DNA from: Nitrososphaeraceae archaeon
GTDB lineage: Archaea > Thermoproteota > Nitrososphaeria > Nitrososphaerales > Nitrososphaeraceae
DNA length: 64,000 nucleotides
Assembly: GCA_031316115.1 (NCBI GenBank)
Contig: JALDRC010000006.1
Span: 62,001-126,000 of the forward strand
Direction of reading: 5' to 3'
Both the position numbers and the translations under genes were made by a program. How positions within the stretch are numbered: the first letter of the stretch is position 1; each line of letters begins with the position of its first letter. Positions 1,998-17,997 of this stretch are shown here, piece by piece. The notes beneath the pieces are model-generated. The model worked only from the letters and a program-made list of their open reading frames with translations, was not told the origin of the DNA and did no database searches.

Positions 1998-2330
1998 ATT
2001 CATTTGTGCTATTATATAGACAGTAGTATGAAAATTAAGATTCAACCTAGCACACATGTCTACTCAGTCAATCTTGTTTGGTTTGTCCCTTTTTGTTGTA
2101 GATGATTGAGAATTAGTATTTCTATTTTCAAATATAGTTTTGAAAATGTATGTTTTACATCAAAAATTTAGTGTCATACTATAAATATATTATTTGTAGG
2201 TAATACTGATCTGGTCGCATTTAGCGAAGAAAATCAATATCCTTATAGTTATCAGGATTTTAATAATATCTATAGAATTGGATTAAATTCTCAAAAATAA
2301 TATTTTATTGTTGTTGTGTATTTTTAGAAG
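1998..2330. other. Gene-free A+T-rich stretch
   Basis: No convincing reading frame. A 16-base string (CAGTCAATCTTGTTT and its preceding T, near 2065-2080) occurs again near 17042-17057. I found no flanking structure that explains this. Confidence 0.4.
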
Positions 2331-2338
2331 TAAAAAAT
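2331..2338. repeat. Target-site duplication, left copy
   Basis: TAAAAAAT directly abuts the left inverted repeat of the IS6-type element and is identical to 3059-3066. Confidence 0.8.
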
Positions 2339-3058
2339 GGCTCTGTTAAGATAAGATAATATTCACCTCCTTTAACCAAAAATTATTGTTATTATTTGTT
2401 ATTACATCGTTATACATAGAAGTAAAGAATTGTATCCAGTTATGAACATGAAATAGATTACATTCAATTTGCTTACAAGGATAGTAATCATCAAATGATT
2501 CAATTCTATCTTTAAAATACTGGTTTGCTCTTTCCATCAAACTTTTTTCTATTGAAGAATGTAGATAGTGTTTTAATTCAATTGCATGACACGCTTCCTC
2601 TCGTACTTGCATGTACACCATCTGTATAGACAGTATGTTTTTTCCATATTTTGTAACTAATGATCTAATGAATTTTTCTGCAACAAGCATGTTTCTCTCT
2701 TCAGAAATATAGATTCCAAGCACCGAAGAGTTAATTGGTTCTATACATATCCATAACCAAAAATGTTGACTACCAATCTGAATAATTGTTTCATCTATAA
2801 TAAAAGCAGTTACTCTTTTTCTTTTGTGAATCTGACAGAACCAAACATCCAATTCCAAACAGAAACATGACTCCTTTTATCATCTCTAAATACTACTAAT
2901 GCTTTAGATGTACTGCGTAGGCTCAAACCAAGAAAGTACAGATAAAGAGAATACATTACAATAAAAGAAGCTGTTCTATTTCTTTCAAATTTGATTTGAT
3001 TCATACGATAAATATAAAGTTCTTAGCTATAGCTGTTTCTGCTTAAGTTAACAGAACC
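2339..3058 (-). mobile_element. IS6-type insertion sequence (720 bp) with terminal inverted repeats
   Basis: The left end reads GGCTCTGTTAAGATAAG and the right end, reverse-complemented, reads GGTTCTGTTAACTTAAG: 14 of 17 positions agree. The GG..CTGTT start is typical of IS6-family ends. The element is bounded by identical 8-bp direct repeats TAAAAAAT (2331-2338 and 3059-3066), the target-site duplication length known for IS6 elements. Inside is one transposase gene on the minus strand that is broken by frameshifts, so the copy is probably immobile without help in trans. Confidence 0.88.
2346..3004 (-). pseudogene. IS6-like DDE transposase, frameshifted
   Basis: The N-terminal part (3004 to about 2812) contains SRS-type HTH text, SLRSTSKALVVFRDDKRSH, and stops after FTKEKE. 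The rest continues in another frame from about 2858 with HKRKRVTAFIIDETIIQIG, which carries the first catalytic Asp. The segment around 2610-2650 is shifted again: the motif HTVYTDG with the second catalytic Asp appears in a different frame from the flanking EACHAIELKHYLHSS and SLMERANQYFKD (catalytic Glu). At least two further indels are needed to restore one frame. All three catalytic acidic residues are still encoded, so the loss of frame looks recent. IS6 transposases normally have about 230 residues, which fits the summed pieces. Confidence 0.85.
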
Positions 3059-3066
3059 TAAAAAAT
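3059..3066. repeat. Target-site duplication, right copy
   Basis: TAAAAAAT directly abuts the right inverted repeat of the IS6-type element and is identical to 2331-2338. Confidence 0.8.
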
Positions 3067-3742
3067 ACAATATCTCGAGAAACCAATAAAAAATATGATC
3101 AGTGTGAGGATGAAACTAAAGAAAAAATTCATTTTGCTAATGTAATGTTATAAATAACTTTAATATAGTTACAATAAATCAGGATTTATTTTTAAGTTTA
3201 TCTAGAATAACTTGTTTTCTCTGTGTTGAGGATATTTTCATGAATTCAGTTCCAGAACAAGATCAAATATGAGAAATGTTATCTCAAAATGATTTTATCA
3301 TAACCTAAGATATTTGGAATTGCGTAAAAGATGCATAGAATAAAGAAAAAATAGAAAATTTATTTTAATTAAGATAAAATTTTTGATAATAGAAACAAGA
3401 ATACAAATTATAAGTTTCTCTACAAATCAAAGATACTTTTTTAATATCTAGATCAATTTTTGATGATAGCTTGATTGAATATCGTATAAACTAAATATGA
3501 TATTTTGTAGATCATGATCTTTTTGCAAAAATTATTTAACAGTTCGGGTTAAAATATGAAAGTTATATATTTTCATCAAGATATACAATACCATCCTTGA
3601 ATAAGTAGATATGTTAATTCAATTATAAATGAATCAGATTCGTTGTTCTCCTTTTTTTGGCTTAATTTCGATATATTTTTTCAATCAAATTCTCTATTTG
3701 TGCTAATTAAAGATCCATAGCAGAATAATGATATTTATTTTA
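3067..3742. other. Gene-free stretch next to the insertion sequence
   Basis: Very A+T-rich, with stops in all frames. I see no gene interrupted by the insertion and no RNA-like structure. Confidence 0.4.
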
Positions 3743-3756
3743 ATCCTTAAAAGGAT
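3743..3756. promoter_or_regulatory. Short perfect palindrome upstream of amrS
   Basis: ATCCTT-AA-AAGGAT lies 27 bases before the TTG start of the radical SAM gene. It overlaps the place where a leaderless archaeal promoter would sit, so it could be an operator. Chance occurrence in A+T-rich DNA is quite possible. Confidence 0.25.
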
Positions 3757-3783
3757 CTTACTCATATAGTAAGAATATACGAA

Positions 3784-4866
3784 TTGCAATTTTCTAATGT
3801 AACCCTAGGAAAGGAAGCTGAACTGTTCAAGATTGTAGGCGATAACAGAATAAAATGCACAGCATGTGCTAGATATTGTCAAATACCAAATGGCAAAATC
3901 GGTTTGTGTGGGGTACGTGGGGTGCTTGATAATAAATTATTTCTATTTTCATATGGAAAGGTTATTTCAGGTAACATTGATCCCATTGAAAAGAAACCTG
4001 TATCACATTATATGCCTGGAACTTCTATTTACTCAATTGCTACTACAGGATGTAATTGGTTATGTAAATATTGTCAGAATTATGATATCTCACAGAGAAG
4101 GAAAATTGAAGGTATTGAACTATCGCCACATGGTGTAATAGAAATGGCAAAAAAATACCGAGTTGAAGGCATTGCTTATACATATAATGAACCATCAATT
4201 TTTATGGAATTTGCAAAAGATTGCGGTGTAGAGGCGCATAAAAATAATATATTTAATATATTCGTGTCTAATGGTTATCTTACCCCTGAATCTATCGATC
4301 TGACTAAGCAATTTTTAGATTGTATAACTGTCGATTTTAAAGGAAGCGGAGAACAAAATTTTGTTAGAAAGTTTATTGGTATTCCTTCTTCTGATCCAAT
4401 TTTTCAAACTATTAAAGAAATTAAAAACTCGACTAAAATCCATATTGAAATAACCGATCTTATTGTACCGGAAGTTGGTGATGATTTATTTGCTGCTAGA
4501 AAATTATGTAAATTCATACATGATGAATTAGGTGATGATACGCCCATTCATTTTCTACGATTTCATCCAGATTATAAAATGATGCAATTTCCATCTACAC
4601 CGACTGAAACCCTTGAAAAACATTATGAGGTTGCCAAAACAGAAGGATTAAAATATGTGTATATTGGTAATGTTCCTGGACACAAACTAGAACACACTTA
4701 TTGTCCAGAGTGTGGAATGATTGTTGTTCAACGTTTAGGATTTGATATTGTTTCATGGAATCTTGATATAAAGAATAGATGTAAAAAATGTTCTTATCCC
4801 ATTGCTATAACTGGGAAACCTAAAAAAATTGGAATAAGAAATAGGTTTAAAATCTTGATGAATTAA
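3784..4866 (+). CDS. amrS: AmmeMemoRadiSam-system radical SAM enzyme (AmrS)
   Basis: The 360-residue protein has the radical SAM cluster C90-x3-C94-x2-C97 (GCNWLCKYC). It is preceded by the characteristic N-terminal cysteine region KCTACARYC...GLCGVRG (Cys25, 28, 32, 42) and followed by YTYNEPSIF and FLRFHPDYKM. A C-terminal zinc ribbon is formed by YCPECG (about 309) and RCKKC (about 341). The start is the TTG at 3784; an in-frame stop lies at 3748 and there is no ATG between. AmrS belongs to the AMMECR1/Memo/AmrS group, whose function is not settled in archaea. Neither AMMECR1 nor Memo is adjacent, so any partner is encoded elsewhere. Four radical SAM features agree, so the family call is firm. 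Confidence 0.93.
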   Translation: MQFSNVTLGKEAELFKIVGDNRIKCTACARYCQIPNGKIGLCGVRGVLDNKLFLFSYGKVISGNIDPIEKKPVSHYMPGTSIYSIATTGCNWLCKYCQNYDISQRRKIEGIELSPHGVIEMAKKYRVEGIAYTYNEPSIFMEFAKDCGVEAHKNNIFNIFVSNGYLTPESIDLTKQFLDCITVDFKGSGEQNFVRKFIGIPSSDPIFQTIKEIKNSTKIHIEITDLIVPEVGDDLFAARKLCKFIHDELGDDTPIHFLRFHPDYKMMQFPSTPTETLEKHYEVAKTEGLKYVYIGNVPGHKLEHTYCPECGMIVVQRLGFDIVSWNLDIKNRCKKCSYPIAITGKPKKIGIRNRFKILMN

Positions 4867-5051
4867 GTCAACTAAGATAATTACAAGAGAATTTGTTATT
4901 CTCCTATCATTGAAGGTGAACTATTTTTGTAGATTATAGGTGCTGAAAAAGTCTCAAAAGATATGAATTTAACACTTACCATAGTAAAATAAGATAGCAC
5001 TATTCATTATAGTATGTAATTTTTAAATAATATGTGTTATTAAATTATTAT

Positions 5052-5309
5052 ATGAGTCAATTAAATAATAATTCAGAGGGAAATCAAAGAATGGATAAGG
5101 AGAATATGTCAAAAACCACTGAATGGGTGGACTTGGTAAGTTCGATTTTCGATCGTCTGACTGGAAAGGAGGCAGTGGTAACTTATGAATTTGATAATCT
5201 TAGAATTAGTATACCTAGAGCTTCAGGTCCTGGAGGTAAAGAATTGGGTTCAGCTGAATGGACAATAAATGGAAAATTAATAATAAAAGCAGAAGCAATT
5301 AATAAGTAA
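5052..5309 (+). CDS. Small conserved-looking protein, unknown function
   Basis: From the ATG at 5052 the product has 85 residues. A GTG at 5034 or an ATG at 5091 are alternatives. The core EWVDLVSSIFDRLTGKEAVV is followed by strands with YEFDNLRISIPRASGPGGKEL and SAEWTINGKLIIKAEA, which suggests a small alpha+beta domain. There is no signal peptide or membrane helix, so it should be cytoplasmic. It is followed after 4 bases by the next gene in the same direction, so the two are probably co-transcribed. I do not recognise a named family. Confidence 0.6.
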   Translation: MSQLNNNSEGNQRMDKENMSKTTEWVDLVSSIFDRLTGKEAVVTYEFDNLRISIPRASGPGGKELGSAEWTINGKLIIKAEAINK

Positions 5310-5313
5310 ATTT

Positions 5314-5979
5314 ATGAATGGAGATTTTTCATTGATAGATTGGCATAATATTGTATCATCAAAAAAAAATGTGCGTTCCAAAAATAATGTATTTGTTGGA
5401 AAAGTAGTAGATAATTATAAAGATGACATCTTGGTTATCAATAATTTAGGGAATATTAAAAAATATAAAATTCCAAAAGCAAAAATAAAAGAATATAATG
5501 GTTCTGAAGTATTATTAAACATTAATTCTGAAGAATTAAAAAAATTTGAAATATTTGATAAAGACCTAGGAATAGTTGATTCAACTATTATGGAATTGTT
5601 TGTTAAAAGTTTGAGTTATGTAACAGGAACAGTTAAAATTGGAATTGATAAAAATTTATCATTAGTTTTTGATAGTTCAGATAATAAGATGAATTTGAAT
5701 ATAATTGATCCGTCTATTTTTGATTTTTCAATAGGCAATATAACCAAAAATAAGTTAACTAGATTTCTATATCTTTTAAAACATACTAAAGTATTCGCCC
5801 ACAATCTTACTGAAAATAATTTAACCTTATCTATTTTAAATAAAAATGAAAATGTATTTACATTAGGGAAAAATGCAAATCCATCATTATCAAAGTTAAT
5901 AACAAGAAGTGACGATATTCAAATTGATAGTCTCAAGAAGTCAATAAAACTTGCATCTGACATAAATAAGGATGAATAA
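5314..5979 (+). CDS. Hypothetical protein with a PRC-barrel-like N-terminal half
   Basis: 221 residues, cytoplasmic by composition. Residues about 25-80 (VFVGKVVDNYKDDILVINN through AKIKEYNGSEVLLNI) resemble a PRC-barrel or DUF2171-like beta domain: short strands with a KYKIPKAKI turn. The C-terminal half is Lys/Asn/Ile-rich without motifs. It starts 4 bases after the preceding small gene, so the pair may be one transcript. The barrel assignment rests on pattern only and no function can be given. Confidence 0.6.
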   Translation: MNGDFSLIDWHNIVSSKKNVRSKNNVFVGKVVDNYKDDILVINNLGNIKKYKIPKAKIKEYNGSEVLLNINSEELKKFEIFDKDLGIVDSTIMELFVKSLSYVTGTVKIGIDKNLSLVFDSSDNKMNLNIIDPSIFDFSIGNITKNKLTRFLYLLKHTKVFAHNLTENNLTLSILNKNENVFTLGKNANPSLSKLITRSDDIQIDSLKKSIKLASDINKDE

Positions 5980-6264
5980 TTAGAAAGTTAATAAATATAA
6001 CTTTTTAGCAGATTTTTGATTTAAAATTTGTTCCAAATATAAAAATCAATCACGAGACTAGATTTTTATTAATTACTATTATGTTCTTTCTTTATTTATT
6101 ATTGGATTTATTAGAATTTTTTTAATTTGTGCTAATCCTAGTTTTTAGAATAATATTAATTATAGATAAATTTGTTTATGGAATAAGAATTAAATAATAA
6201 CTAGATTAACTAGCTTAGCATATCAATTATTAAGCACATATTGGTTATATAAATTAGCATTTAT

Positions 6265-7878
6265 TTAATTAATCCTACTTATATACCAATTAATTTTCTT
6301 TTCTAAGAAATCTAATTGTGATTCATTAAACTTACCTTTTCTATGTAACATATTTATATCTCTCTGAATTTTCTCTAGTTGTTTTATACATTCTTCTCTA
6401 TTGTTTTTGGATAAAACTTCATAGGTATAATCAATATTTGATAAATGTCTTTTAAAAAATCTTTTTGATTTTTCTTTGTATAACCACCCTCCGATGGTGG
6501 AAATTAACCCTATTGCCACAGAAGTTAAGATTATTATCATTTCCGTAAAAATGGCTCCTTTAAAATTTGCAGTTAGAGTGCCATAACCTGTTATATTAAA
6601 TTTTAGAGGATTTTCATATGTATTATTATTCATAGACCAAAAATCGAATTCATATCCTCTTTCAGGATCTGCTTTACATTCAATTTGCGAGTATACAGGT
6701 ACCGTTATAAATTCTCCAGTTTTTAAAACTGTATCATTACATAAGACGATTCCGGAATCGGCTGGACTAATATCTATAAATAATTTTGTAATTAATTCAT
6801 CTATATTACCATCTATCGCTATTATTCCATTTGAAATAGTATCAGTCATGTAAGTGATATTTGTAAGTGGATCTATTGTCATTTTGCTTGCTATTAGCGG
6901 TAATGTAACTTTTGAGGTAATATTGAAAAGAAGATCGTTTGTTATAGAAGAACTTAGGACAGGTTTTAGAGAAATATTTTTGATAACATTATTTGTTTTA
7001 CCATCAATTATGCTTATAGTTTTATTTTGGGAGTTATGGACGTAGACTTTGTTTGTTTTAGGGTTAACAATAATCCCAATTGGATTTTCTCCTACTTTTA
7101 TATTAGCTTCTACTTTATCTGTGTATCCGTTAATAACGCTAATAGAATCAGACAAGAAATTTGAAACGTATATTGTATTAGACAGAATGTTAAATCCTAA
7201 CATTGAAGGTCTGGATCCAACTGGAATTTTTGAGAGAAGTTTGTTTGTAGCACCATCTATTACAGTTATACTATTGTTTCCCAAATCTGAAATATACACT
7301 TTATTTGTCTGAGGGTTTACTACAATATCATACGGTAAAGAAGTATAGTTTAATGTCTCTGTTACTTGATTTTCAATAGCATCAACAACTGTAATAGTTC
7401 CAGAATTAAGATTTGATACATATAACCAATTTGTAGCTAGATTTATTCCTATTCCGACAGGAGATTTTCCGACATCTAATTTTGTGATTACTCGATCGGT
7501 AAATCCGTCGATTACAGAAACAGTATCTGATCCTCTATTTGTTGAATAAACTCTATTTGTGAACGGATTTATTTCCAAATCATAAGGAGAATTATCTACC
7601 TCTATATTAGATTGGACTGCTGAACTGTCAATATCTATAACTGAAATGGTATTTGAATATTCATTCGCTACATAAATTTTACCGGCTACTGGATTTATAG
7701 CAATTCCAATAGGGAAACTTCCTGCATGTATTATAGGTTCGGATTTTAATGAGATATGCTTTTGTGGTTCTTGAGAAAGGGTTTCAGGTTCTTGAGCTGA
7801 AATATTATTAGTTAAGACAAATATAAGAAAGAGAACCAATACAGAAAGAGAACAAAAAAGTGAGGACCTACTAGTCAA
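6265..7878 (-). CDS. Seven-bladed YVTN-type beta-propeller surface protein with membrane anchor
   Basis: 537 residues. Residues about 6-28 form a signal peptide (SLFCSLSVLVLFLIFVLTNN). The ectodomain has seven YVTN-like repeats of about 42 residues, each ending like IYVANEYSNTISVID, LYVSNLNSGTITVVD or VYISDLGNNSITVID, enough for one closed propeller. After it comes a short Ig/InlB-like segment (YEFDFWSMNNNTYENPL) and a transmembrane helix (MIIILTSVAIGLISTIGGWLY, about 450-470). A basic cytoplasmic tail of about 60 residues (KEKSKRFFKRHL...) follows. Such proteins sit on the archaeal cell surface; ligands are unknown. The internal tail makes a purely structural role less certain, but this is inference. 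Confidence 0.88.
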   Translation of the reverse strand: MTSRSSLFCSLSVLVLFLIFVLTNNISAQEPETLSQEPQKHISLKSEPIIHAGSFPIGIAINPVAGKIYVANEYSNTISVIDIDSSAVQSNIEVDNSPYDLEINPFTNRVYSTNRGSDTVSVIDGFTDRVITKLDVGKSPVGIGINLATNWLYVSNLNSGTITVVDAIENQVTETLNYTSLPYDIVVNPQTNKVYISDLGNNSITVIDGATNKLLSKIPVGSRPSMLGFNILSNTIYVSNFLSDSISVINGYTDKVEANIKVGENPIGIIVNPKTNKVYVHNSQNKTISIIDGKTNNVIKNISLKPVLSSSITNDLLFNITSKVTLPLIASKMTIDPLTNITYMTDTISNGIIAIDGNIDELITKLFIDISPADSGIVLCNDTVLKTGEFITVPVYSQIECKADPERGYEFDFWSMNNNTYENPLKFNITGYGTLTANFKGAIFTEMIIILTSVAIGLISTIGGWLYKEKSKRFFKRHLSNIDYTYEVLSKNNREECIKQLEKIQRDINMLHRKGKFNESQLDFLEKKINWYISRIN

Positions 7879-8203
7879 ATATGGAATTTATGATGATGCG
7901 ATATAAAAATTTACATTTATTCTCTAAATTTAAAATACCGCTTAAATAAAATTTTAATTCAAGTAACAAATAACTATATCATATATAAATTCTAGCATTT
8001 TTTGATTTATTTTTTAATATAAATAAAAATGGAGTTACTATCCACTTGAAGAAAAAAGATATATCATTAAGATAACATAGTTATATCCTATCTATGGTTT
8101 GTTGTTGACAACTAAATTATTTATTATAATAATGTTTTCCTATCATTAGAGCATCTTTCAGAGGTTGATTTATATCCTTTGTTGACCATATTAGTTATAG
8201 ATC
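7879..8203. other. Divergent intergenic region
   Basis: This region lies between two divergently transcribed genes for secreted proteins, so both promoters must be here. It is A+T-rich throughout and I cannot pick single TATA boxes with confidence. Confidence 0.4.
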
Positions 8204-8593
8204 TTGAAGCATTTCCAAGGTTTTCTTATTATTACATTGATATTATCATTCATTCTTCCAAGCTTTTCTCTTATCCCATTGAATGCTTCAAAGGATTCAG
8301 AAGATATTTTTCCAACACCCGATAATGACAATTCCTTTGGTTCTCTAAGCAGAATGTTGGCAATAGAAGATGAAATTGGTGATGATGAAAAAGGAACAAC
8401 AGATGAGGAAATGAGCGATACAAGTGATGATGAAAAAGGAACAACAGATGAGGAAATGAGCGATACAAGTGATGATGAAAAAGGAACAACAGATGAGGAA
8501 ATGAGCGATACAAGTGATGATGAAAAAGGAACAACAGATGAGGAAATGAGCGATACAAGTGATGATGAAAAAGGAACAACAGATGAGGATTAA
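8204..8593 (+). CDS. Secreted acidic protein made of a 15-residue tandem repeat
   Basis: 129 residues from a TTG start. Residues 5-24 form a signal peptide (QGFLIITLILSFILPSFSLI). A short linker is followed by four exact copies and one partial copy of DDEKGTTDEEMSDTS (residues about 60-129). The repeat region is highly acidic, with no Cys and no aromatic residues, and is surely disordered. Such acid tails can bind cations or act as a surface spacer; no enzymatic role is likely. The exact identity of the repeats at DNA level means the copy number can change by slippage. Confidence 0.7.
   Translation: MKHFQGFLIITLILSFILPSFSLIPLNASKDSEDIFPTPDNDNSFGSLSRMLAIEDEIGDDEKGTTDEEMSDTSDDEKGTTDEEMSDTSDDEKGTTDEEMSDTSDDEKGTTDEEMSDTSDDEKGTTDED
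8381..8590 (+). repeat. 45-bp tandem repeat, four perfect copies plus 30 bp
   Basis: The unit begins GATGATGAAAAAGGAACAAC and repeats at 8381, 8426, 8471, 8516 and 8561, the last cut off by the stop codon. No substitutions are seen between the full copies. The unit length is a multiple of three, so changes in copy number keep the frame. Confidence 0.95.
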
Positions 8594-8660
8594 TAGTGCT
8601 AAACCTCGAAGTACATTAATTTCGGTTAATACAATTATAGAAATTCTGAAAGATCTATAA

Positions 8661-9944
8661 TCATATATGCTTGTCCCTAAAGTATTGAAGATATTGTTCC
8701 CCTTTTGCTTCTCCCTGTTTTATTAGATCTTGAATTGTTTTCCTGGAAAAGTCTGCATTTTTCATTACATGTGGTGATTCCATCCTATTTCTACTTATGT
8801 TTGTAACACAATGTATTTCTGCACCATAATTATTTATTAGTTCATTATATTCTTCTTTTATAAATTTAAGTTCAGTGGCGGTATAAGAATTTGTATTATT
8901 GGTGTTATTAGTTTCTATTTGACGGTAAAGTTTTTCTATTAATTGAATTTGCCTAGTTACTAGTCTACTTGTACGAATATCATGTAAAGTTTTATCACTA
9001 AAGATTATATCCTTCGCTCGATCTTGAACCTCGATCAAGTTTGAAGGGAGGCAAATAATTTCTCTAGGGTAATTTTCAACTATGAATATATGTTTATCAT
9101 TTCTAGGAGATGATTCCATTACTTCTCGTAAAGGAGTATTACTTAACAAACTTCCATCCCAAACATACGCATCTTTTTCCACTTCTACCCATGGAAATCC
9201 GTATATAGGGTATCCGGAACTTGCTAGAATATGTTTGCTTTCAATTTGCATTTTGGCACTATCGAATATTACTGGTTCGGCATTTAGCACATTAACCCCA
9301 GTTATGACCAACCGGATGAAATTCTGATTATTTTTTGATTTTGGTGATAGTTTATCATAATCTATGTATTTTTCCAGAGTTTTTTCTAATGGAGAATGGT
9401 CGTATAAATATGTCCAATTAAAAACAGAATAATTTCCAAAAACATTCGAAATATCTTGTCCTAAATATGGAAATGGTTGTAATATGTTCCACCTCGGTAA
9501 AAACATTTTTGGCACTCCGAAAAGAGAGGCAGTCATAGGAGCTGAAGATGTTCTGATTAGTTCTGAAAAGTCATAAAAGGGGAAATTATTTTTAATGTTC
9601 AAAAGATTTGAATCTTTAACTTCATTAATACCAAAGAATAAGTTATTTGGAATACTGTTAAAAATACTTTCGGAAAGTTCCATCCAAAAATCTTCCAAGT
9701 CTTTAGCAGGATTATTATTCTTGCTTCCGGCTATTATTGCACCATTGATTGCTCCTATAGATGTACCACCGATTAAATCAATTTTCAAGTTATGTTTAGC
9801 AAATACTTTGAATACACCACAAAAGAAAGCTCCCAATGAACCGCCACCTTGAAGAACTATAACATTTTCATGATCCCTTGACGAATCATGTCTTGGCTCA
9901 CTTGTTGATACTACATATTCTGAAATATCGGTTACTTCTTCCAT
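8661..9944 (-). CDS. Patatin-like phospholipase (RssA-type)
   Basis: 427 residues. The oxyanion motif GGGSLGAFFCGV (residues 33-44) is followed by the nucleophile elbow GGTSIG (Ser62) and the second dyad residue Asp263 in VWDGSLLSNTP, the DGG/A-type motif. This is the complete Ser-Asp dyad of patatin lipases, which release fatty acids from phospholipids or other acyl esters. No signal peptide or membrane helix is seen, so the enzyme should be cytoplasmic or membrane-peripheral. The C-terminal 120 residues are helical and match the extended DUF3734-like tails found on some bacterial patatins, though that match is uncertain. In an archaeon with ether lipids the natural substrate is not obvious. 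Confidence 0.9.
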   Translation of the reverse strand: MEEVTDISEYVVSTSEPRHDSSRDHENVIVLQGGGSLGAFFCGVFKVFAKHNLKIDLIGGTSIGAINGAIIAGSKNNNPAKDLEDFWMELSESIFNSIPNNLFFGINEVKDSNLLNIKNNFPFYDFSELIRTSSAPMTASLFGVPKMFLPRWNILQPFPYLGQDISNVFGNYSVFNWTYLYDHSPLEKTLEKYIDYDKLSPKSKNNQNFIRLVITGVNVLNAEPVIFDSAKMQIESKHILASSGYPIYGFPWVEVEKDAYVWDGSLLSNTPLREVMESSPRNDKHIFIVENYPREIICLPSNLIEVQDRAKDIIFSDKTLHDIRTSRLVTRQIQLIEKLYRQIETNNTNNTNSYTATELKFIKEEYNELINNYGAEIHCVTNISRNRMESPHVMKNADFSRKTIQDLIKQGEAKGEQYLQYFRDKHI

Positions 9945-10821
9945 TATCTACGACAAAAACTAAGCAAACTACCAACCATATATGTCTTTGAAAATTTCTT
10001 AGGGATGCTTCAAATGATTATCACTAAAAAAATCATTTTTTTAATAACAGATAAATTTTTAAAATTTTTCTGAATTAAATTTAAATTTTAAAATCTATTT
10101 CCAAAACTTTGACCTTAGATTAAAATAAAGATTAGTTAGGAATTAGCTCTATAAAATGAACTTTAAAAATAGCAGACCTTTAATTTTTATTATGACATTT
10201 CTTCATTTTTTACTACTTGTTTCAATGTAACCCATCATAAATATTATTTTCTACTAATTCAGAAATTGAATCTTGAATTATTAAGATTAAATATTAATAT
10301 ATTTTAAAACATATCAGATATTATTTAATATAGTAGAAATGAGTTAATGGCACCAGGAAGATAAGAAACTCTTAGGTATTAAATTAAATAAATCTTTCAA
10401 AATTGAGCTAAGAAAATAATAGATCAGAATAAAATATTTATGCTTTATTACTTAGCAGTGTGTGCAAAAGTTAGAAATCACCTTTTTTTGGAATATATGA
10501 GGTTGAAGTATATAATCTCAACAGGAGAGATGATACAAATGAAAAAAAGTAGCTAATTAATTTTTTACGTCCTAATATGTAAAATAGAACTAAACACACC
10601 GACTAGGTTTTATCAAAGCAAAATCTGTGGGTATTTTGGTAACTAGGTAAAGTAAAATTTTAAATTAATATTTTATGTATCAAATGATTCTTGTTATAAA
10701 AAATGCAAAAGATAAGAAACGTAAAAAAAATATAGCTTTTTAAAAACAAAGTGAAAAATCTGTGATTTATCGATATTTATACCTAATCATATTTAGATGG
10801 TAGTTATAATATTTACTGTCA
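9945..10821. other. Long gene-free stretch
   Basis: About 880 bases without a plausible gene in any frame. Short frames opposite the start of the following SDR gene are its shadow. No repeat or RNA structure stands out. Confidence 0.45.
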
Positions 10822-11595
10822 ATGATGTTAAAAGACAAAGTGACTTTAATTACTGGTTCTACTCGTGGATTGGGTCTAGAAATGGCTAAATATTTTTCAG
10901 AAAATTGTAACGCTTTAGTAGTAGTATGTTCTAGAAACTTAGAAAGTCTTGAAAAAGTTAAGAAAATAATTAAAGGAAAGATAATGACTGCAAAACTTGA
11001 TGTAACTAAAAGAGATGAAATAGAAATGACTATTAAAACTATAGAAGACAAATATGGAAGAATAGATATTTTAATAAATAATGCCGGATTTGAATTTGAC
11101 AAAAAAATATGGTACAAGAAATTTCATGAAGTTGAGTTAAATATTTTTGATAATATTATAAAAGTTGACCTGATGGGCTCTATTATGTTATCTCAACATG
11201 TAATAAAGAATATGTTAAAAAATTACAAGAAAAACAAATCATTTAATGGAGTGATAATAAATATTTCCTCTACTCCTGCAATTAATGGTCATGTAGAAGG
11301 TTCACCATATACAATCGCAAAAGCTGGGATTATGGGTTTAACTAAACACATAGCACGAGAATATGGAACATATAACATCCGGGCATATACACTCGCGTTA
11401 GGAAATATTTCGACCTATTCTACATACAATTCCATGGATAAAGAACATCGTTTATTAGCAAAAAAAGAAACTTCACTTAAAAGATGGGGTAGACCAAGAG
11501 AGGTTGCGAAAATAGCAGCAAGTTTAGCAAGTAACAATTTTACTTATGCTACTGGAAATACCTTTGTTATAGATGGAGGAAATATTATGATTTGA
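10822..11595 (+). CDS. Short-chain dehydrogenase/reductase (classical SDR)
   Basis: 257 residues, the standard size of a single-domain SDR. The nucleotide-binding motif TGSTRGLG is at 11-18, NNAG at 86-89, and the catalytic Ser (INISS, about 149), Tyr163 and Lys167 (PYTIAKAG) are all present. The C-terminus GNTFVIDGGNIMI is the usual FabG-like ending. It should be an NAD(P)-dependent oxidoreductase; FabG-like 3-oxoacyl reduction is one option, but SDR substrates cannot be read from sequence. The ATG at 10822 (or the second Met codon, 10825) starts directly ahead of the first strand. It is isolated from other genes. Confidence 0.88.
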   Translation: MMLKDKVTLITGSTRGLGLEMAKYFSENCNALVVVCSRNLESLEKVKKIIKGKIMTAKLDVTKRDEIEMTIKTIEDKYGRIDILINNAGFEFDKKIWYKKFHEVELNIFDNIIKVDLMGSIMLSQHVIKNMLKNYKKNKSFNGVIINISSTPAINGHVEGSPYTIAKAGIMGLTKHIAREYGTYNIRAYTLALGNISTYSTYNSMDKEHRLLAKKETSLKRWGRPREVAKIAASLASNNFTYATGNTFVIDGGNIMI

Positions 11596-11893
11596 TATTA
11601 AAAAAATTTATTTAAATTATGTTCTAAATTAAAGAATTAATTAAAAAAGATATTGGTAAAATTATTGTAGTAGTGTTAAGTTTGTTATTACATTATAATA
11701 ATTATTGTCATCATTATCTAACATAGGAAAAGATCATCTATTGATATCCAATTTCATGTACTGGATCTTAGTAAATGATACCTGTTTCGTATAATAATTT
11801 TTTCAAATCTTCCTCTGATACTAGGGTGATTATTTCATTGTTTGAACAAATCACAAGCATATGAAAATCTCGATTATAAAGAATGTTATGGTA

Positions 11894-12451
11894 TTAAGAG
11901 ATAAATATTGTTGTAGAAAATAAAACATATAATATTAAACCATAAATTAGATGTCCTATCAAACTAACTATAGCTGGACCATATCCTAATGGGTGTTTCA
12001 ATGGATGAAGTCCAGTAATTGGTTTATGAATTGGAATAAGAGTAATAATCCATAGAAAAAAACCGTATAATAATCCAAGTAACACTATAGGAATCGAATT
12101 CAAAATAGGAATGAATATCAAAACTATCAGGAAACCAATCCCTCCTACGCCACCATTTAGAAAATGTAAGAGAAGTATACCCCAAAAGTGAGGAGTATGA
12201 TCAGGAAGTTTAAAAATTCGACTTGTCAATATCTGGTTTTCATGCCATTCGAGAATACCGGTTAAAAGCCATTTTCTATAAAATGGCAATTCCAACAAGG
12301 TCATAACTAAAGTAGAAATAATTCCAATTAAGAAACTTGTTAAAATAAAATGAGTTTCAAATTGCAAATTATAATTTGACAAGCTTAATTTGTATTTAAA
12401 TTTTTTAGTTGGAAAACTACTAATATTCAGAGTGAAATAGTATAAAATCAT
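11894..12451 (-). CDS. Polytopic membrane protein, unknown function
   Basis: 185 residues with about four transmembrane helices: THFILTSFLIGIISTLVMTL, GGIGFLIVLIFIPILNSIPI, VLLGLLYGFFLWIITLI and AIVSLIGHLIYGLILYVLFS. Between helices lie polar stretches rich in His and Pro (EWHENQ, LPDHTPHFWG, IHKPITGLHPLKHPLGYG). The conserved-looking HPLKHPLGYGPA loop next to a helix and the repeated His residues could indicate metal or haem contact, but I know no family with this pattern. The first 30 residues are weakly supported and translation may begin at a later codon. Confidence 0.6.
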   Translation of the reverse strand: MILYYFTLNISSFPTKKFKYKLSLSNYNLQFETHFILTSFLIGIISTLVMTLLELPFYRKWLLTGILEWHENQILTSRIFKLPDHTPHFWGILLLHFLNGGVGGIGFLIVLIFIPILNSIPIVLLGLLYGFFLWIITLIPIHKPITGLHPLKHPLGYGPAIVSLIGHLIYGLILYVLFSTTIFIS

Positions 12452-13540
12452 TCAAAACAATTTGTAAAAGTAGGCTGAGATGTTAATAATATTTTGATTG
12501 TAGATTGTTAATACTTATGTTACTAAATAGAATTAGAAATAAATTTAACTATTTACACAATTGTTAATTAAATTCATGGTCTATAATAAAGGAAAATATT
12601 AAAATTCAATATTGCGCTATTTCACTATTTGTTTGGAAACTAAAAATAAATAAAGAATTTCTGTATTGCATACTGAAGAAGATATTGGATAAGTTGTAGA
12701 AGTTACCAATCTGAGAGTCAAAAAAGATAGGATAAAATATATTGTGTAATTTATATTATAATAAAAATAGGTTTCTTTTATAAACTCGTTTTTGACTTTA
12801 CAGCATTGATGAAGTAGTGAATTATATCGTTTAATTAGTTACATTACCTAGATTCTAATATTTCAATTTGCAATATCGATACGAATAATAAAATATTACT
12901 TCTATTTTCAAGCAATTTAGACTACTAATAATAGTCTTTTCCAGAAGTAACCATCACTCGATGTATTTACAATTCAAAAATTAATATCTATTGCCTTACA
13001 ATCAATGGAAAAATATATTAGAGTGATCTATCATGCCTAAACCAAATGTAGATTAATAAATTAATTTTCATGAAAATTGTTTATTTTTAATATTTAGAAA
13101 AACTGAAATAAATTGAATAGATTATGTTTTTTCATTTCGTTAATCAGAGTAAGATGAGAAGTGATAATACCATTCAAAGTTTTATAAACCGTGGAGACGT
13201 TATCTCCTAATAAGACTTTAAGTAGTGATTCATAAGCAGTTTTCTAGATCATAATGTAAATTTGAAATCCAGCTCATAAAAATACCAACTTAAATCTTGA
13301 TATACAAGTAACTTATTAATTGAAGATCTTGAAACCGTATGAATTCACCTAGAAGCATATATTTGAAATAAAAGGTAAATAGAAAGCTCTTTTGTATGAG
13401 AGTTGGAAGATATTATAAATTATAAAGTTGCTTCAAAGTATTGAAAGTTATATGAATGATAAGAATGATAATTTCATTTTAAAATATATATTTTGTAGAA
13501 CATTATTAGTTAAATTTAATGAATAAGTCACTGGATAAGT
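12452..13540. other. Gene-free stretch with a possible gene remnant
   Basis: About 1.1 kb without a complete gene. On the minus strand, 13094-13242 is open and encodes a sensible helical segment (AYESLLKVLLGDNVSTVYKT and onwards) without a start codon, which may be a leftover of a decayed gene. Together with the RTX pseudogene to its right this looks like a region of gene loss. Confidence 0.35.
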
Positions 13541-14206
13541 ATGTTGGACCTTTCTAAATTCATAGCAGTTATTGTGATTTTAATATCACCTTTCTTATTA
13601 CATGGGTTTTCACAATGATATACAAGGTCAGGTTAGCAACCTATCTCCGTTTGAACCGGAAAACCTACAATTAAAGTCGATATTGAAGATAATATCGAAT
13701 ATGATAAAATAGAGGGAACAGATGGTGATGACGAGATTACCGACAGAAAGGGCGATGATGAATTGTATGGAGGCAGGAGTGATTATGGATTAGATGGTGA
13801 TGAAGGAGATGACATTATAAATGGTCAGTATGGAGATGATGAGTTTAAAGGGGGATAAATGAGATGACAAGATTTTTGGAAAAACGGCAACGATCTTTTG
13901 ATTCGTGAGGAAGGAGATGATGAAGTGAATGGAGGAAATGGTGATGATAAGGCTATCAGTGGTGAAGTGGATGACGAAGTAAATGGCCGAGTAGGTGATT
14001 ATATATTGATTGGAGGAATGGGAAGAGATACGTTCATTTGTCACAGATTTGATCAATTAACGCACTTTTTAGAAGAGGATAACGTTGGAAGGCAGTGTGA
14101 GATGAGGAACAGTTTAGACTTAGGAGTATCAAACTATTCAAAATCATCAATAAACAATAGATTAGATAATTTTATTAGAAATATCTGTTACAATGATCTA
14201 ATATAA
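13541..14206 (+). pseudogene. Secreted RTX (haemolysin-type Ca-binding repeat) protein, decayed
   Basis: The ATG at 13541 opens a good signal peptide (MLDLSKFIAVIVILISPFLL) that stops after GFSQ. A shifted frame then carries VDIEDNIEYDKIEGTDGDDE, ELYGGRSDYGLDGDEGDD and INGQYGDDEFKGG before another stop at about 13857. A third piece, again shifted, runs NGNDLLIREEGDDEVNGGNG and VGDYILIGGMGRDTFIC. These are RTX nonapeptides of the form GGxGxDxLx, several degraded by substitutions, and the GRDTFIC ending matches the last repeat before the usual capping segment FDQLTHFLEED. Intact homologues would be secreted, calcium-folded proteins. At least three breaks argue for real decay. Confidence 0.8.
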
Positions 14207-14347
14207 AATATCACAAAATGCAAGATCGAGTTCAAGGAAAATCATTTAAAGTTTAATAAATAATTTAAAAATATGTCGACCTAGATAATATTATTCCCAG
14301 AATTATAATCCTAAAATTATTATAACCAATTAACAAGAGTACTGAAT

Positions 14348-14701
14348 ATGAATTTTGATAATTTGTGTAAAACAGTAATGAATATGGATACAACAATTAG
14401 ATTTGTAGGTATATGTGATGAATCTGGTGAGATAAAATATGGAGGTCAGAGAGAAGGAGTAGAAAATGTTTTAAAGAATGAAGAAACAAGGAGATCAAAT
14501 CTTCAAGCACTCGCTAGATGGGGGCTCCGAAATTCATTATCTCCGAAAATAGGAAGGGGAAAGTATGCTATGGCTGAATATGAGAAGATAAAAAGAATAA
14601 CAATTCCCCTAGAAAACGAACATCTTTTACTAGTAACTACTGAAGTAGAAGCAGATCATGCAAAAATAATTAAAAATATCTTAAAGTTATTAAACACATA
14701 A
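14348..14701 (+). CDS. Small conserved archaeal protein, DUF6659-like
   Basis: 117 residues, soluble. The core IRFVGICDESGEIKYGGQREG is followed by a basic turn (EETRRSNLQALARWGLRNSL) and a beta segment (YEKIKRITIPLENEHLLLVT) and ends in a helix. The strand-helix-strand pattern with a conserved ESG turn recalls a roadblock/profilin-like sensor fold, and I believe this is the thaumarchaeal group labelled DUF6659; this label is from memory. The next gene follows 6 bases later in the same direction, so the two may form an operon. Function unknown. Confidence 0.7.
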   Translation: MNFDNLCKTVMNMDTTIRFVGICDESGEIKYGGQREGVENVLKNEETRRSNLQALARWGLRNSLSPKIGRGKYAMAEYEKIKRITIPLENEHLLLVTTEVEADHAKIIKNILKLLNT

Positions 14702-14707
14702 TACTGT

Positions 14708-14941
14708 ATGGTAGAGGTATTCGTATTAATTACTTGTGATTATGGTGAAGAGGAAAGAATAATTAACGAACTAAGCAAAATAAAAGAAATAAAAACTTTG
14801 AGTAAGATAGAAGGTCCATATAATATTCTTATCAAAATTGATGGTGAGAACATAGATAATATTAAAGAGATTGTAACTGGCGAGATAAAAACAATTGATA
14901 AGATAAGACATACTTTAACATTAAAGACAAAGACCGTATGA
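14708..14941 (+). CDS. Stand-alone Lrp/AsnC ligand-binding (RAM) domain protein
   Basis: 77 residues corresponding to just the C-terminal effector domain of Lrp/AsnC regulators: VEVFVLITCDYGEEERIINE forms the first beta-alpha unit, KTLSKIEGPYNILIKIDGEN the central part with the G-PYNIL motif, and IDKIRHTLTLKT the last strand. No DNA-binding helix-turn-helix is present. Such stand-alone RAM proteins form oligomers that bind amino acids or modulate full-length Lrp regulators. It begins 6 bases after the preceding gene. Confidence 0.85.
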   Translation: MVEVFVLITCDYGEEERIINELSKIKEIKTLSKIEGPYNILIKIDGENIDNIKEIVTGEIKTIDKIRHTLTLKTKTV

Positions 14942-14994
14942 TATGCTTCCGAGTAATCTCAAGTAAATTTGGTATAATTATGGTTGCTCCATTA

Positions 14995-15381
14995 TCATGT
15001 AAAATGTTCTGCTTTTACTATCCATTTTCCTGATTTTTTCCCAAGGATCAGATTGCCAACAAGATTTCCTTTATTGTATACTTTAGCTATTTCTTTATTA
15101 GCTCCTATTAAAGAGAGGAAGAATGAATCCTTTTTATGATATCCAGATTCGATCACCTTCATATTAAGTTTATTACTAGTTTTTTTAATAAGATTTCGTG
15201 CCACAGGCCATTCTCCTTTCCAAGAAATAATTTGAAAATTACCAAACTTTATAGTGTTTAAGAGATATCCTTCCAATTTAGCTTCGAATTTTTTATCATG
15301 TTGTAATGCATAAGAATTCATCCATTGAATTGCCTCTTCTGCTTTTCTTTCTTCAAGCGCAAAATTATCTGTAGTAGCCAA
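14995..15381 (-). CDS. Conserved-looking cytoplasmic protein, unknown function
   Basis: 128 residues. An N-terminal helical part (ERKAEEAIQWMNSYALQHDK) leads into a beta-rich part with NFQIISWKGEWPVARNLIKK and a final strand pair, NLVGNLILGKKSGKWIVKAE. No signal peptide, membrane helix or catalytic motif is seen. It is transcribed away from the DUF99 gene, with which it shares a short promoter region (15382-15450). I do not recognise the family. Confidence 0.65.
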   Translation of the reverse strand: MATTDNFALEERKAEEAIQWMNSYALQHDKKFEAKLEGYLLNTIKFGNFQIISWKGEWPVARNLIKKTSNKLNMKVIESGYHKKDSFFLSLIGANKEIAKVYNKGNLVGNLILGKKSGKWIVKAEHFT

Positions 15382-15450
15382 ATTATTCGAAAAAACAACA
15401 TGGTATATTAAATACTTTGATATTATTTTAGTACCTTATTAAATAGACAT

Positions 15451-16035
15451 ATGAAAATTGGAAAAAAAGTACATCTCTACAAAAAAGGCATTAGAATATT
15501 AGCAATAGCTGAGAGTTTTAGAAAGGAAAATTCTTTTTCCGTCATTTCTGGCATAGTAATGAGAAAAGATCTCATAATTGATGGTATAAAATTTGGCACA
15601 GTTACCATTGGAGGAGATGATGCCACCAGTAATATAATAAAGATGATTAAAGATTTAAAACGAAATGATATTAATCTTATTTTACTAGATGGATTGATAA
15701 TAAGCATGTACAATATAATAGATGGAGAAAAGATCTTGAAAGAAACTGGGATTCCTGTGATAGCTCTCTCATTTAATGATTCTATTGGAATTTCTGATTC
15801 AATCAAAAACTTTTTTCCGGACAACTATAAAAGAAAAATAGATATGTATAAGAGATTAGGAGAGCGCAAGAAGATAATTTTAAAATCAGGAAAACATCTA
15901 TTCATTAGAAACTGGGGAATAAGCTTTTCTGATGCTATTTTTTCCATAAATTCGTTTCTCATTCAAGGAGCAATTCCAGAGCCAATACGAATAGCAAAAA
16001 TGGTTTCAAGAGCATATATGAGATTTGTTAAATAA
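15451..16035 (+). CDS. DUF99 (UPF0215) family protein, endonuclease V-like
   Basis: 194 residues, the usual length. Matching features are the start GIRILAIAESF, the hydrophobic strand SGIVMRKDLIIDGIKFGTVT, ILLDGLIISMYNIIDGEKI and the C-terminal GAIPEPIRIAKMVSRAYMRF. DUF99 is an archaeal relative of endonuclease V with an RNase H-like fold. The acidic residues expected at the first strand (AES instead of a clear Asp) and at LLDG are partly kept. Its biological role is not known; a nucleic-acid function is inferred from the fold. ATG start after a run of A+T. Confidence 0.88.
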   Translation: MKIGKKVHLYKKGIRILAIAESFRKENSFSVISGIVMRKDLIIDGIKFGTVTIGGDDATSNIIKMIKDLKRNDINLILLDGLIISMYNIIDGEKILKETGIPVIALSFNDSIGISDSIKNFFPDNYKRKIDMYKRLGERKKIILKSGKHLFIRNWGISFSDAIFSINSFLIQGAIPEPIRIAKMVSRAYMRFVK

Positions 16036-16470
16036 AATTAATTATATCTGATGTTTAGTCAATAGAAAAATATAAACATCATATTTAATATCGAATTTAC
16101 AGTCATTTAAGATAAGAAAACTTTTTAGATTATGTTTTATAGGATATTCAAAATTGAGTACAGAATAAAACAAATCATTGAAAAAGATTTTTTGATTATT
16201 CTGTCTCTTAACAGAGCCAATGAAACAATTAAAGGATTTTGCAAGAAAAAAAATCAAATAGTATAGGGGATTGTTATACAACTGTGGTAATTCATTATCT
16301 TTAGCATAGAAAATTCCAAAGTAGTCAGTTTTTCTAGTAAACCAATATATAAATATGCTAAATACTCAAGTAATTGATAAACAAATATCATTTGAAGTAT
16401 AATTTATCGTCACTATAATAAAACAAACTAGCGATTTCCGTATTCAATTGACAGAATTATAACTCACACT
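16036..16470. other. Gene-poor stretch before the small-RNA locus
   Basis: A 79-codon frame on the minus strand (16042-16281) is Phe/Asn/Lys-rich and low-complexity and is probably not a gene. Nothing else is visible. Confidence 0.35.
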
Positions 16471-16484
16471 CGAAGGCTATAAAA
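16471..16484 (+). promoter_or_regulatory. Archaeal promoter (BRE + TATA box) of the putative small RNA
   Basis: CGAAGGCTATAAAA combines a purine-rich BRE-like element with a textbook TATA box (16478-16484). A start point about 25 bases downstream falls near 16505, just ahead of a stable stem-loop, and no coding frame follows. Confidence 0.55.
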
Positions 16485-16504
16485 CCATAAACACAAACGT
16501 AGAG

Positions 16505-16585
16505 ACAGCAAGCATATGGAGAGAGTAGGGACAAAAAGAGCAGTCAGACTGTTGGTTCATCTCCTACTCTCTTCATTTTTTACTA
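16505..16585 (+). ncRNA. Putative structured small RNA
   Basis: A 14-bp stem pairs 16516-16529 (ATGGAGAGAGTAGG) with 16563-16576 (CCTACTCTCTTCAT), with one G-T pair. Inside the 33-base loop is a second hairpin, AGCAGT-CAG-ACTGTT (16539-16553). A run of six T (16576-16581) follows the stem, as expected for an archaeal terminator. The block is clearly richer in G+C than its surroundings and has a promoter at the correct distance. No C/D-box or tRNA signature is seen, so the class is unknown. Transcription is inferred, not shown. An alternative reading is an isolated terminator hairpin, but no gene ends just upstream. Confidence 0.55.
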
Positions 16586-17437
16586 TACGGTTCTGAATCT
16601 AGATTACTTTTATGAAAAGTAATTAATTCTGCTCGATGTTTTAGGTGTATTCTCAAACAGCCTACTCCTTTTGGTTCATGTTTAACTTTCCTGATGTTTA
16701 TGTTACTTTTTTTTGAAATGTGTGTTCAATAAAATGTTCAACAATTAATCGTCTAGTATAATGGATCGATTATGGAATCTCCTTAATTCCAACTAGATAA
16801 TTGTCTGGTATATCATGAAAGAATCAGACGATTGTGTCAGTGATAAAAAGATTGTTTGATAAACATATTACATCTAAACTAATACGAAAGCAATATAGAG
16901 AATGGATATTCAAATGTATAAGATGCGATGTTCAACGGATGTTCATTTTAACTATTATTAGATGGTTTCTCCAAAGCCTTTATTTACTACTTTACTTAAT
17001 TCATTTTATTTATCATTCTTAGTTGAACTGATTCGAAAATTCAGTCAATCTTGTTTATAGAATTTAAGGTTTCCTTTAATTTTATTAATTAATTATCTTA
17101 TTTTATTATTCTATATTCATTTTAATTTTTAGAATGTTAATAGATACTAAGTTAATAAGGGTCTAATTCTATTGCATTTTCGTCTCATACCATTTTTTAG
17201 TCAAGAGTAAGAGTAAGAGTTTGAAATTCAATATATCTCTGTTATGATAATTTTTATAATATAAAAAGAAATTAACTAATTAATCTATACACCAGTAAAA
17301 TATAAATTCCTAAAGAGAGTACACATATCTTATCTTATTATTTTATAAAACAATATTCCTAATTATATAACAATTGTTAATTCCTAATGAAATTATACTA
17401 GTAGATTATATTCAAACAATCTCTATTGTTTATTCGT
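16586..17437. other. Gene-poor stretch with weak coding traces
   Basis: A 62-codon plus-strand frame at 16834-17022 (VIKRLFDKHITSKLIRKQYR...) has no recognisable relatives to me and may be a remnant. The minus strand at 16600-16760 contains short broken protein-like runs in several frames. No complete gene is present. Confidence 0.35.
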
Positions 17438-17440
17438 ACG

Positions 17441-17450
17441 TTAAATATAC
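17441..17450 (+). promoter_or_regulatory. TATA box of the following secreted-protein gene
   Basis: TTAAATATAC is centred about 28 bases before the ATG at 17473, the spacing expected for a leaderless archaeal mRNA. No Shine-Dalgarno site precedes the ATG. Confidence 0.45.
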
Positions 17451-17472
17451 TATATTTGAATGTAATAGAACA

Positions 17473-17997
17473 ATGAACACTAAAACAAAAACAGGTTCAA
17501 TGTTCTTGCTAGCAGCTGTACTGGTTGCTGGAACTATATCAATGATTGTTCCGAATGCATCAGCAGAACCAGATTACTATGGTTATGAAGAGAAATATGC
17601 AAAAGATCCATATGAAAAAGAATACAATATGTATGATGATCTATATGCAGAGAAAGATCCCTACTTTATGAATGATGGTTTTGGAAAGAAAGATCCATTT
17701 TCAAAAGACCATGACAAGGATTTTAAAAGCGTAAACATTCAGAAAATTAAATGTATCAATGCTAATATCAATATCAACGGTGTAGATTTTAAGAAATTCC
17801 CAGGCAAAATGACGGCAGACGCAGATACATCAGAAGTAATGCAGGAAGATAATGGTGCAACAAATGGCGACAGGAATACTAATGAATTCATGGGTGGAGC
17901 GTTTGATCATGGTATCGACATAGATAAAAATCTAGTAAATGTCTGTCTTGACTTCAACTTTGATCACCACTCAAAAAGCTTCAGTAGAACAGAATAA
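17473..17997 (+). CDS. Secreted Tyr/Asp-rich protein, unknown function
   Basis: I start the gene at the ATG 17473, because it opens a proper signal peptide (TGSMFLLAAVLVAGTISMIV, cleavage after ASA) and has a TATA box at leaderless spacing; the frame is open further upstream but the extension is not signal-like. The mature part of about 145 residues begins with charged Tyr-rich repeats (YGYEEKYAKDPYEKEYN). It then has a conserved-looking core VNIQKIKCINANININGVDF with one Cys and a second Cys in NVCLDFNFD, possibly a disulfide. This kind of protein is abundant in the Nitrososphaera group by my recollection; its function is not known. Confidence 0.75.
   Translation: MNTKTKTGSMFLLAAVLVAGTISMIVPNASAEPDYYGYEEKYAKDPYEKEYNMYDDLYAEKDPYFMNDGFGKKDPFSKDHDKDFKSVNIQKIKCINANININGVDFKKFPGKMTADADTSEVMQEDNGATNGDRNTNEFMGGAFDHGIDIDKNLVNVCLDFNFDHHSKSFSRTE

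Follow-up and report, generated by a model that had tools for sequence, protein, structure and literature searches.

The 64,000-nt stretch of DNA analysed here (the window) corresponds to C17:62001-126000 of G000, a 3.16-Mb Nitrososphaeraceae assembly. It contains a hairpin (16516-16576) that is the top-scoring stem anywhere in its 64 kb and that the initial annotation had read as a candidate new small RNA with its own promoter and terminator. Is this hairpin a gene in its own right, and does it act as RNA or as DNA? The stem comprises 15 bp (16516-16530/16562-16576), including one G.T pair, and encloses a loop of 31 nt. Its MFE of -30.5 kcal/mol compares with -20.2 ± 3.2 kcal/mol for shuffled sequences (z -3.22), 1 of 200 of which folded as well. 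The long stem, the inner hairpin and the T-run all lie where they had been placed, with the inner helix weak and not kept in relatives, and the G+C content of 44% is higher than that of the surroundings (26% over 16100-17400; 30% in the whole window), as had been observed. Against 4227 Rfam models, the window gave no match at gathering thresholds and only chance-level matches in a permissive scan, and ARAGORN detected no tRNA. The hairpin falls into no known RNA class, in agreement with the initial annotation. Another strong palindrome of the window (60256-60309) lies inside a coding gene of 1041 aa and is unrelated to this hairpin.

The window hairpin as a mobile-element relic

A BLAST search within G000 revealed a sister of the window hairpin on contig C20, located 11 nt downstream of the stop codon of a gene for a Cys-rich 153-aa protein (p153), which in turn lies directly behind a terminase large-subunit gene (TerL). 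On the p153 side, the C20 element carries TerL, a putative TerS (an HTH protein, assigned by position and HTH alone) and a primase-type gene (D5-type primase/helicase). A ribbon-helix-helix (RHH) gene, a 233-aa gene (p233) and a tyrosine integrase are found on the other side of the hairpin. Matches to PHROG were obtained for the terminase large subunit (E 1e-22) and the integrase (E 2e-10); the integrase also matches Phage_integrase and XerA_Arch below cut-off. Searches of Pfam, NCBIfam and PDB returned no relatives of p153 or p233 worth trusting, and no capsid or portal genes were recognised among selected ORFs scanned in 19 kb around the C20 hairpin. A viral collection gave no p153 or TerL relative by a pattern method, IMG/VR gave no exact loop motif, and a genome-contig scan with p153 as query yielded nothing.

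With TerL, a TerS-like gene and a tyrosine integrase, C20 is a candidate terminase-only integrated element. It is reminiscent of NitKor-E1, the integrated element of Nitrosopumilus koreensis, which encodes TerS and TerL and no other recognised head-tail genes (PMC6563490). Both are thaumarchaeal and share TerS, TerL and a tyrosine integrase, and no capsid genes were recognised in the part of C20 examined. However, the description of NitKor-E1 includes neither hairpin arrays nor p153 (PMC6563490). The C20 element (L009, G000:C20:10000-29000, at 2217-12248) appears to be a satellite-like or degraded tailed-virus element, and at least eight decayed relatives of it are present in G000. A second element (L010, G000:C1:46000-65000, at 9940-14501) encodes the same p153 and a 540-aa TerL with a different N-terminal part, alike in the C-terminal half only (52%); an unrelated 667-aa gene replaces the primase, which we read as module exchange.

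In blastn, the window and C20 are 70% identical over 16339-16530 and 75% over 16559-16626. Global alignment shows identical arms (29/29), a divergent loop (10/22) and flanks of 75% identity (P 2e-4). A decayed fragment of p153 lies beyond the hairpin (E 3e-4 to 9e-6, varying with the database) and is convergent with it, as in intact copies (Table 1). The initial annotation had described the region as free of genes, and the ORF list indeed holds none of at least 60 aa across the hairpin; because of the C20 homology and the p153 fragment, however, the region is to be seen as the remains of an element. The window hairpin is a mobile-element relic and not a stand-alone new gene. The initial annotation had also staked its proposal on conservation of the stem in relatives that keep the locus. 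G058 and G062, the two genomes compared here, as the G059 locus ends too soon, retain the Endo_dU gene that lies to the left of the window hairpin, with neither hairpin nor p153 downstream. Thus, the locus is not conserved, and the hairpin arrived with the mobile element.

Elsewhere in the window (17314-17500), ~170 bp in front of a gene for a small secreted protein are 75-83% identical to several places near the integrated elements (L009, L011 and three in L012); we read this as a gene family that is repeated in the genome and whose leader region is conserved. L012 also encodes, at 12697-15843, a 1048-aa protein that consists almost entirely of GNEGND-type repeats (RTX-like).

Table 1. Features of the window hairpin and its surroundings, and hairpin arrays of G000 (contig coordinates where a contig is named)
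Feature	Position	Strand	Basis or remark
Stretch homologous to the C20 element between its RHH gene and p153	16339..16626	+	blastn and global alignment
ACTCACACTCG motif, best-kept upstream element among sister copies (consensus TTATnACACTCGCAA)	16462..16473	+	comparison of copies
BRE/TATA of the initial annotation, CGAAGGCTATAAAA	16471..16484	+	not conserved in sister copies; missing in C20 alignment
5' arm of stem, ATGGAGAGAGTAGGG	16516..16530	+	fold; 15/15 identical to C20
Weak inner hairpin AGCAGU CAG ACUGUU, 6 bp (16539-16544/16548-16553)	16539..16553	+	fold; absent in sister copies
GGTTCAT, counterpart of loop motif GATTCAT	16554..16560	+	alignment A3
3' arm of stem, TCCTACTCTCTTCAT	16562..16576	+	fold; 14/14 aligned positions as in C20
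T-run TTTTTT after 3' arm, possible oligo-U transcript end	16576..16581	+	sequence
Decayed p153 fragment, residues 78-108	16725..16817	-	tblastn, 42% over 31 aa
Eight-hairpin array	C17:187.6-188.5 kb
Eight-hairpin array	C3
Four-hairpin array	C1
Further hairpin arrays	C14 and C5

Hairpin arrays and strand bias in G000

A covariance model built from nine hairpin copies (CM R1) gave nine strong matches in G000, most of which adjoin an intact or decayed p153. The hairpin has been lost from some relics (C12:392, C1:181). In the better-kept elements, hairpins stand in tandem arrays between the RHH gene and p153, up to 8 in a row at a spacing of ~120 nt, and the one matched by the model is that closest to p153. 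The array hairpins have the outer stem GGAGAG/CTCTCC in common and differ in their inner stems and loops. In most of the other copies, the motif GATTCAT sits in the loop before the 3' arm.

On the strand antisense to p153, strand-neutral stem detection counted 46 G.T against 19 A.C pairs in array stems (binomial P 0.001), and a T-run follows the 3' arm in 22 of 34 array hairpins versus an A-run before the 5' arm in 4 of 34 (Fisher 1e-5), both P values being optimistic for related, non-independent copies. These biases indicate that one strand folds as a single strand, for which U-tailed RNA is the simplest reading. Covariation, the kind of compensatory change that the initial annotation had looked to, is weak within the nine close copies, with 3 pairs changed on both sides and 62 of 500 shuffles as good; support for the stem comes from whole-stem replacement between lineages.

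Lineage-specific stems and a common loop motif

The search for the stem in other genomes, also proposed initially, gave nothing convincing, with CM R1 matches beyond G000 marginal (E 0.002 or worse). The link between genera therefore rests on the loop motif CTACGATTCATT, which is common to different stems. In genus g10 (TA_15/TH-type MAGs), exact CTGRTGGG...CCCAYCAG hairpins are present in 12/12 genomes, with a total of 112 and none for the reversed-pattern control. They sort into loop types, one of which has ACCAATCTACGATTCATT before the 3' arm, matching CAAGTCTGYCKACGATTCATT of the G000 copies, on an entirely different stem. Alignment of both genera with MAFFT (A5) left the 5' arms unaligned. 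Several g10 hairpins lie just downstream of p153 (G047:C81, G050:C258, G050:C194, G052:C215, G052:C132, G046:C61), and those beside p153 in L084, L088, L089 and L091 carry their G.U on the strand antisense to p153. A T-run accompanies 5 of 30 g10 alpha hairpins. These alpha-type hairpins (e.g. G047:C81:5957-6011) have a fixed A.C/G.U fourth pair, which is oriented alike with respect to the loop (TGAACAAGAMACAACC) in 20 of ~24. One TerL-p153 element (G047:C132, L083) is without hairpins, and a genome-contig scan with a g10 TerL as query led to Nitrososphaerales MAGs of TA_15/TH type but to no further array.

Another set, 62 CATAGCC...GGCTATG hairpins (control 0), occurs in five sister species within the genus of G000, which itself has none. 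Examples among G058-G062 are L177 9990-10035 and L183 2358-2403. Four of the five species lack TerL and have their hairpins scattered over ordinary intergenic regions, several between convergent genes. Two species (G058:C239, G062:C63) share one such hairpin, with a conserved loop, at one and the same position between convergent genes. When the sister-species hairpins are oriented by their loop, T-runs lie to one side in a ratio of 11:1, as judged with a motif picked once the data had been seen.

Within each lineage, a single stem is common to all loop types: GGAGAG in G000, CATAGCC in the sister species, and CTGGTGGG. A lineage-wide stem suggests a stem-reading factor, or concerted evolution.

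RNA and DNA readings of the family

The window hairpin belongs to a strand-specific, U-tailed intergenic hairpin family of several Nitrososphaeraceae lineages. With the relic, the family, its lineage-specific stems, the common loop motif and the strand bias established, we infer from the sequences an RNA-level function, in which U-tailed hairpins would define 3' ends and give rise to small RNAs. In the explanation that we prefer, and to which we give an even chance, the window hairpin is the end unit that has survived from the hairpin array of a terminase-bearing integrated element, otherwise decayed here, and hairpins of this family act as U-tailed RNA. An element transcript would extend from the small RHH gene across the array in the direction of p153, and each stem-loop with its oligo-U would create a defined, nuclease-resistant 3' end. 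Discrete small hairpin RNAs may be the product of the array, and the last hairpin would block read-through into the convergent p153-terminase operon.

This explanation is supported by the homology to the C20 element and the p153 fragment, by the identity of the arms in the window and C20 at 75% flank identity, by the CM matches mostly beside p153 and by the position of the arrays between the RHH gene and p153. The RNA reading in particular draws on the G.T/A.C and T-run biases on the strand antisense to p153, on the same G.U placement in p153-side hairpins of g10, on the one-sided T-runs of the sister species, and on the replacement of the stem between genera while the loop ACCAATCTACGATTCATT was kept. 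Counting against it are the close-copy covariation, which does not exceed that of shuffles, the mostly T-run-less alpha hairpins of g10 and the relics without a hairpin. Since the sister species have dispersed hairpins without terminase elements, the family is not solely an element's array. In intrinsic or bidirectional terminators, a stem likewise leads into a T-run; in the element, this arrangement lies where the RHH/array strand meets the convergent p153. Unlike such terminators, the hairpins form tandem series of up to 8 and have conserved loops and lineage-wide stems, which termination alone does not need.

We tentatively entertain a wider possibility, namely a Nitrososphaeraceae-wide class of structured RNA hairpins in which a lineage rewrites all stems as one 'barcode' and the loop types persist. 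This would imply an undescribed trans-acting, co-evolving factor that mobile elements exploit. Structured RNAs and palindromic repeats are almost uncharted in soil ammonia-oxidiser-type archaea; a limited literature search on thaumarchaeal small RNAs found nothing relevant, an absence that is not proof of novelty. If the hairpins act as RNA, they constitute an RNA-like family that can be recognised and that brings its own test, as the whole stem is exchanged between lineages and the loop stays constant; the family would also be tied to integrated elements with a terminase, of which little is known. If they act as DNA, a palindromic repeat family spreads without the usual transposase.

The latter would apply if the hairpins were self-spreading palindromic repeats like REPs/REPINs, with a protein that recognises the stem in single-stranded or cruciform form and copies it around the genome, and with arrays and element association as by-products. 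We regard this as rather unlikely. REPs/REPINs are short intergenic hairpins of lineage-specific sequence, alone or in clusters, whose arms are shared and whose middles vary (PMC3116915, PMC2817692, PMC12306157). The present hairpins are repeated intergenic palindromes with a common sequence, have one stem per lineage across loop types that differs between lineages, number 112 exact copies in g10 and 62 in the sister species against empty controls, and are often solitary in intergenic space. However, no RAYT (Y1_Tnp) gene was found in G000 or the g10 genomes searched, copy numbers are low (tens per genome or fewer), and the hairpin shared at one site by two species argues against high mobility. 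Moreover, the present loops contain conserved, oriented motifs, the common arms measure only ~8-14 bp, the arrays adjoin a terminase operon, and the T-run and G.U strand bias favour RNA. A REP survey of bacteria and archaea mentions no Nitroso- or Thaumarchaeota names (PMC12306157).

Two other kinds of DNA repeat were considered, and the first, the integron attC site, was rejected. Integron attC sites (species-specific, VCR-type) also combine lineage-specific inverted repeats, several loop types, arrays and an element with a tyrosine recombinase, but the RYYYAAC/GTTRRRY core is absent from the present stems, no ORF or cassette gene lies between array hairpins (20-120 nt apart), and solitary copies are dispersed. 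The few copies argue against DNA uptake-type single repeats.

It is improbable that the hairpin is a protein-bound DNA site of the element, serving packaging, replication or partition and read by the RHH protein or TerS. Such a role would suit the array, which in every better-kept G000 element has the RHH gene on one side and p153-TerL-TerS on the other. Nevertheless, sister genomes have hairpins without TerL or p153, the g10 element L083 has TerL and p153 without hairpins, and a double-stranded site would give no G.U or T-run strand bias.

Very improbable is the proposal of the initial annotation, an independent small RNA gene with its own promoter, since the window box is absent from C20 and the other copies, the locus is unconserved in relatives, and hairpins can lie too close together. 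The TATA-like sequence CTATAAAA is present at 16477-16484, at a workable distance from a stable fold with a T-run. With 154 occurrences of TATAAA over 128 kb of strand, a box of this kind near the hairpin is weak evidence. The 8-nt segment AAGGCTAT that carries it is deleted in C20, the closest copy, and other sister copies have no TATA at this position; in g10, two array hairpins are only 20 nt apart, which leaves no room for one promoter each. Of the hallmarks of an autonomous archaeal sRNA gene, the oligo-T end is found, in the window and in 22 of the 34 array units, and a conserved BRE/TATA is not. What endures of the proposed small RNA is a discrete, structured, strand-specific and T-run-ended hairpin outside genes, its stem present in nine G000 copies; a promoter of its own and a conserved locus are not supported. 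In favour of separate promoters, TTTATACC is found ~25 nt upstream of some array units in G000.
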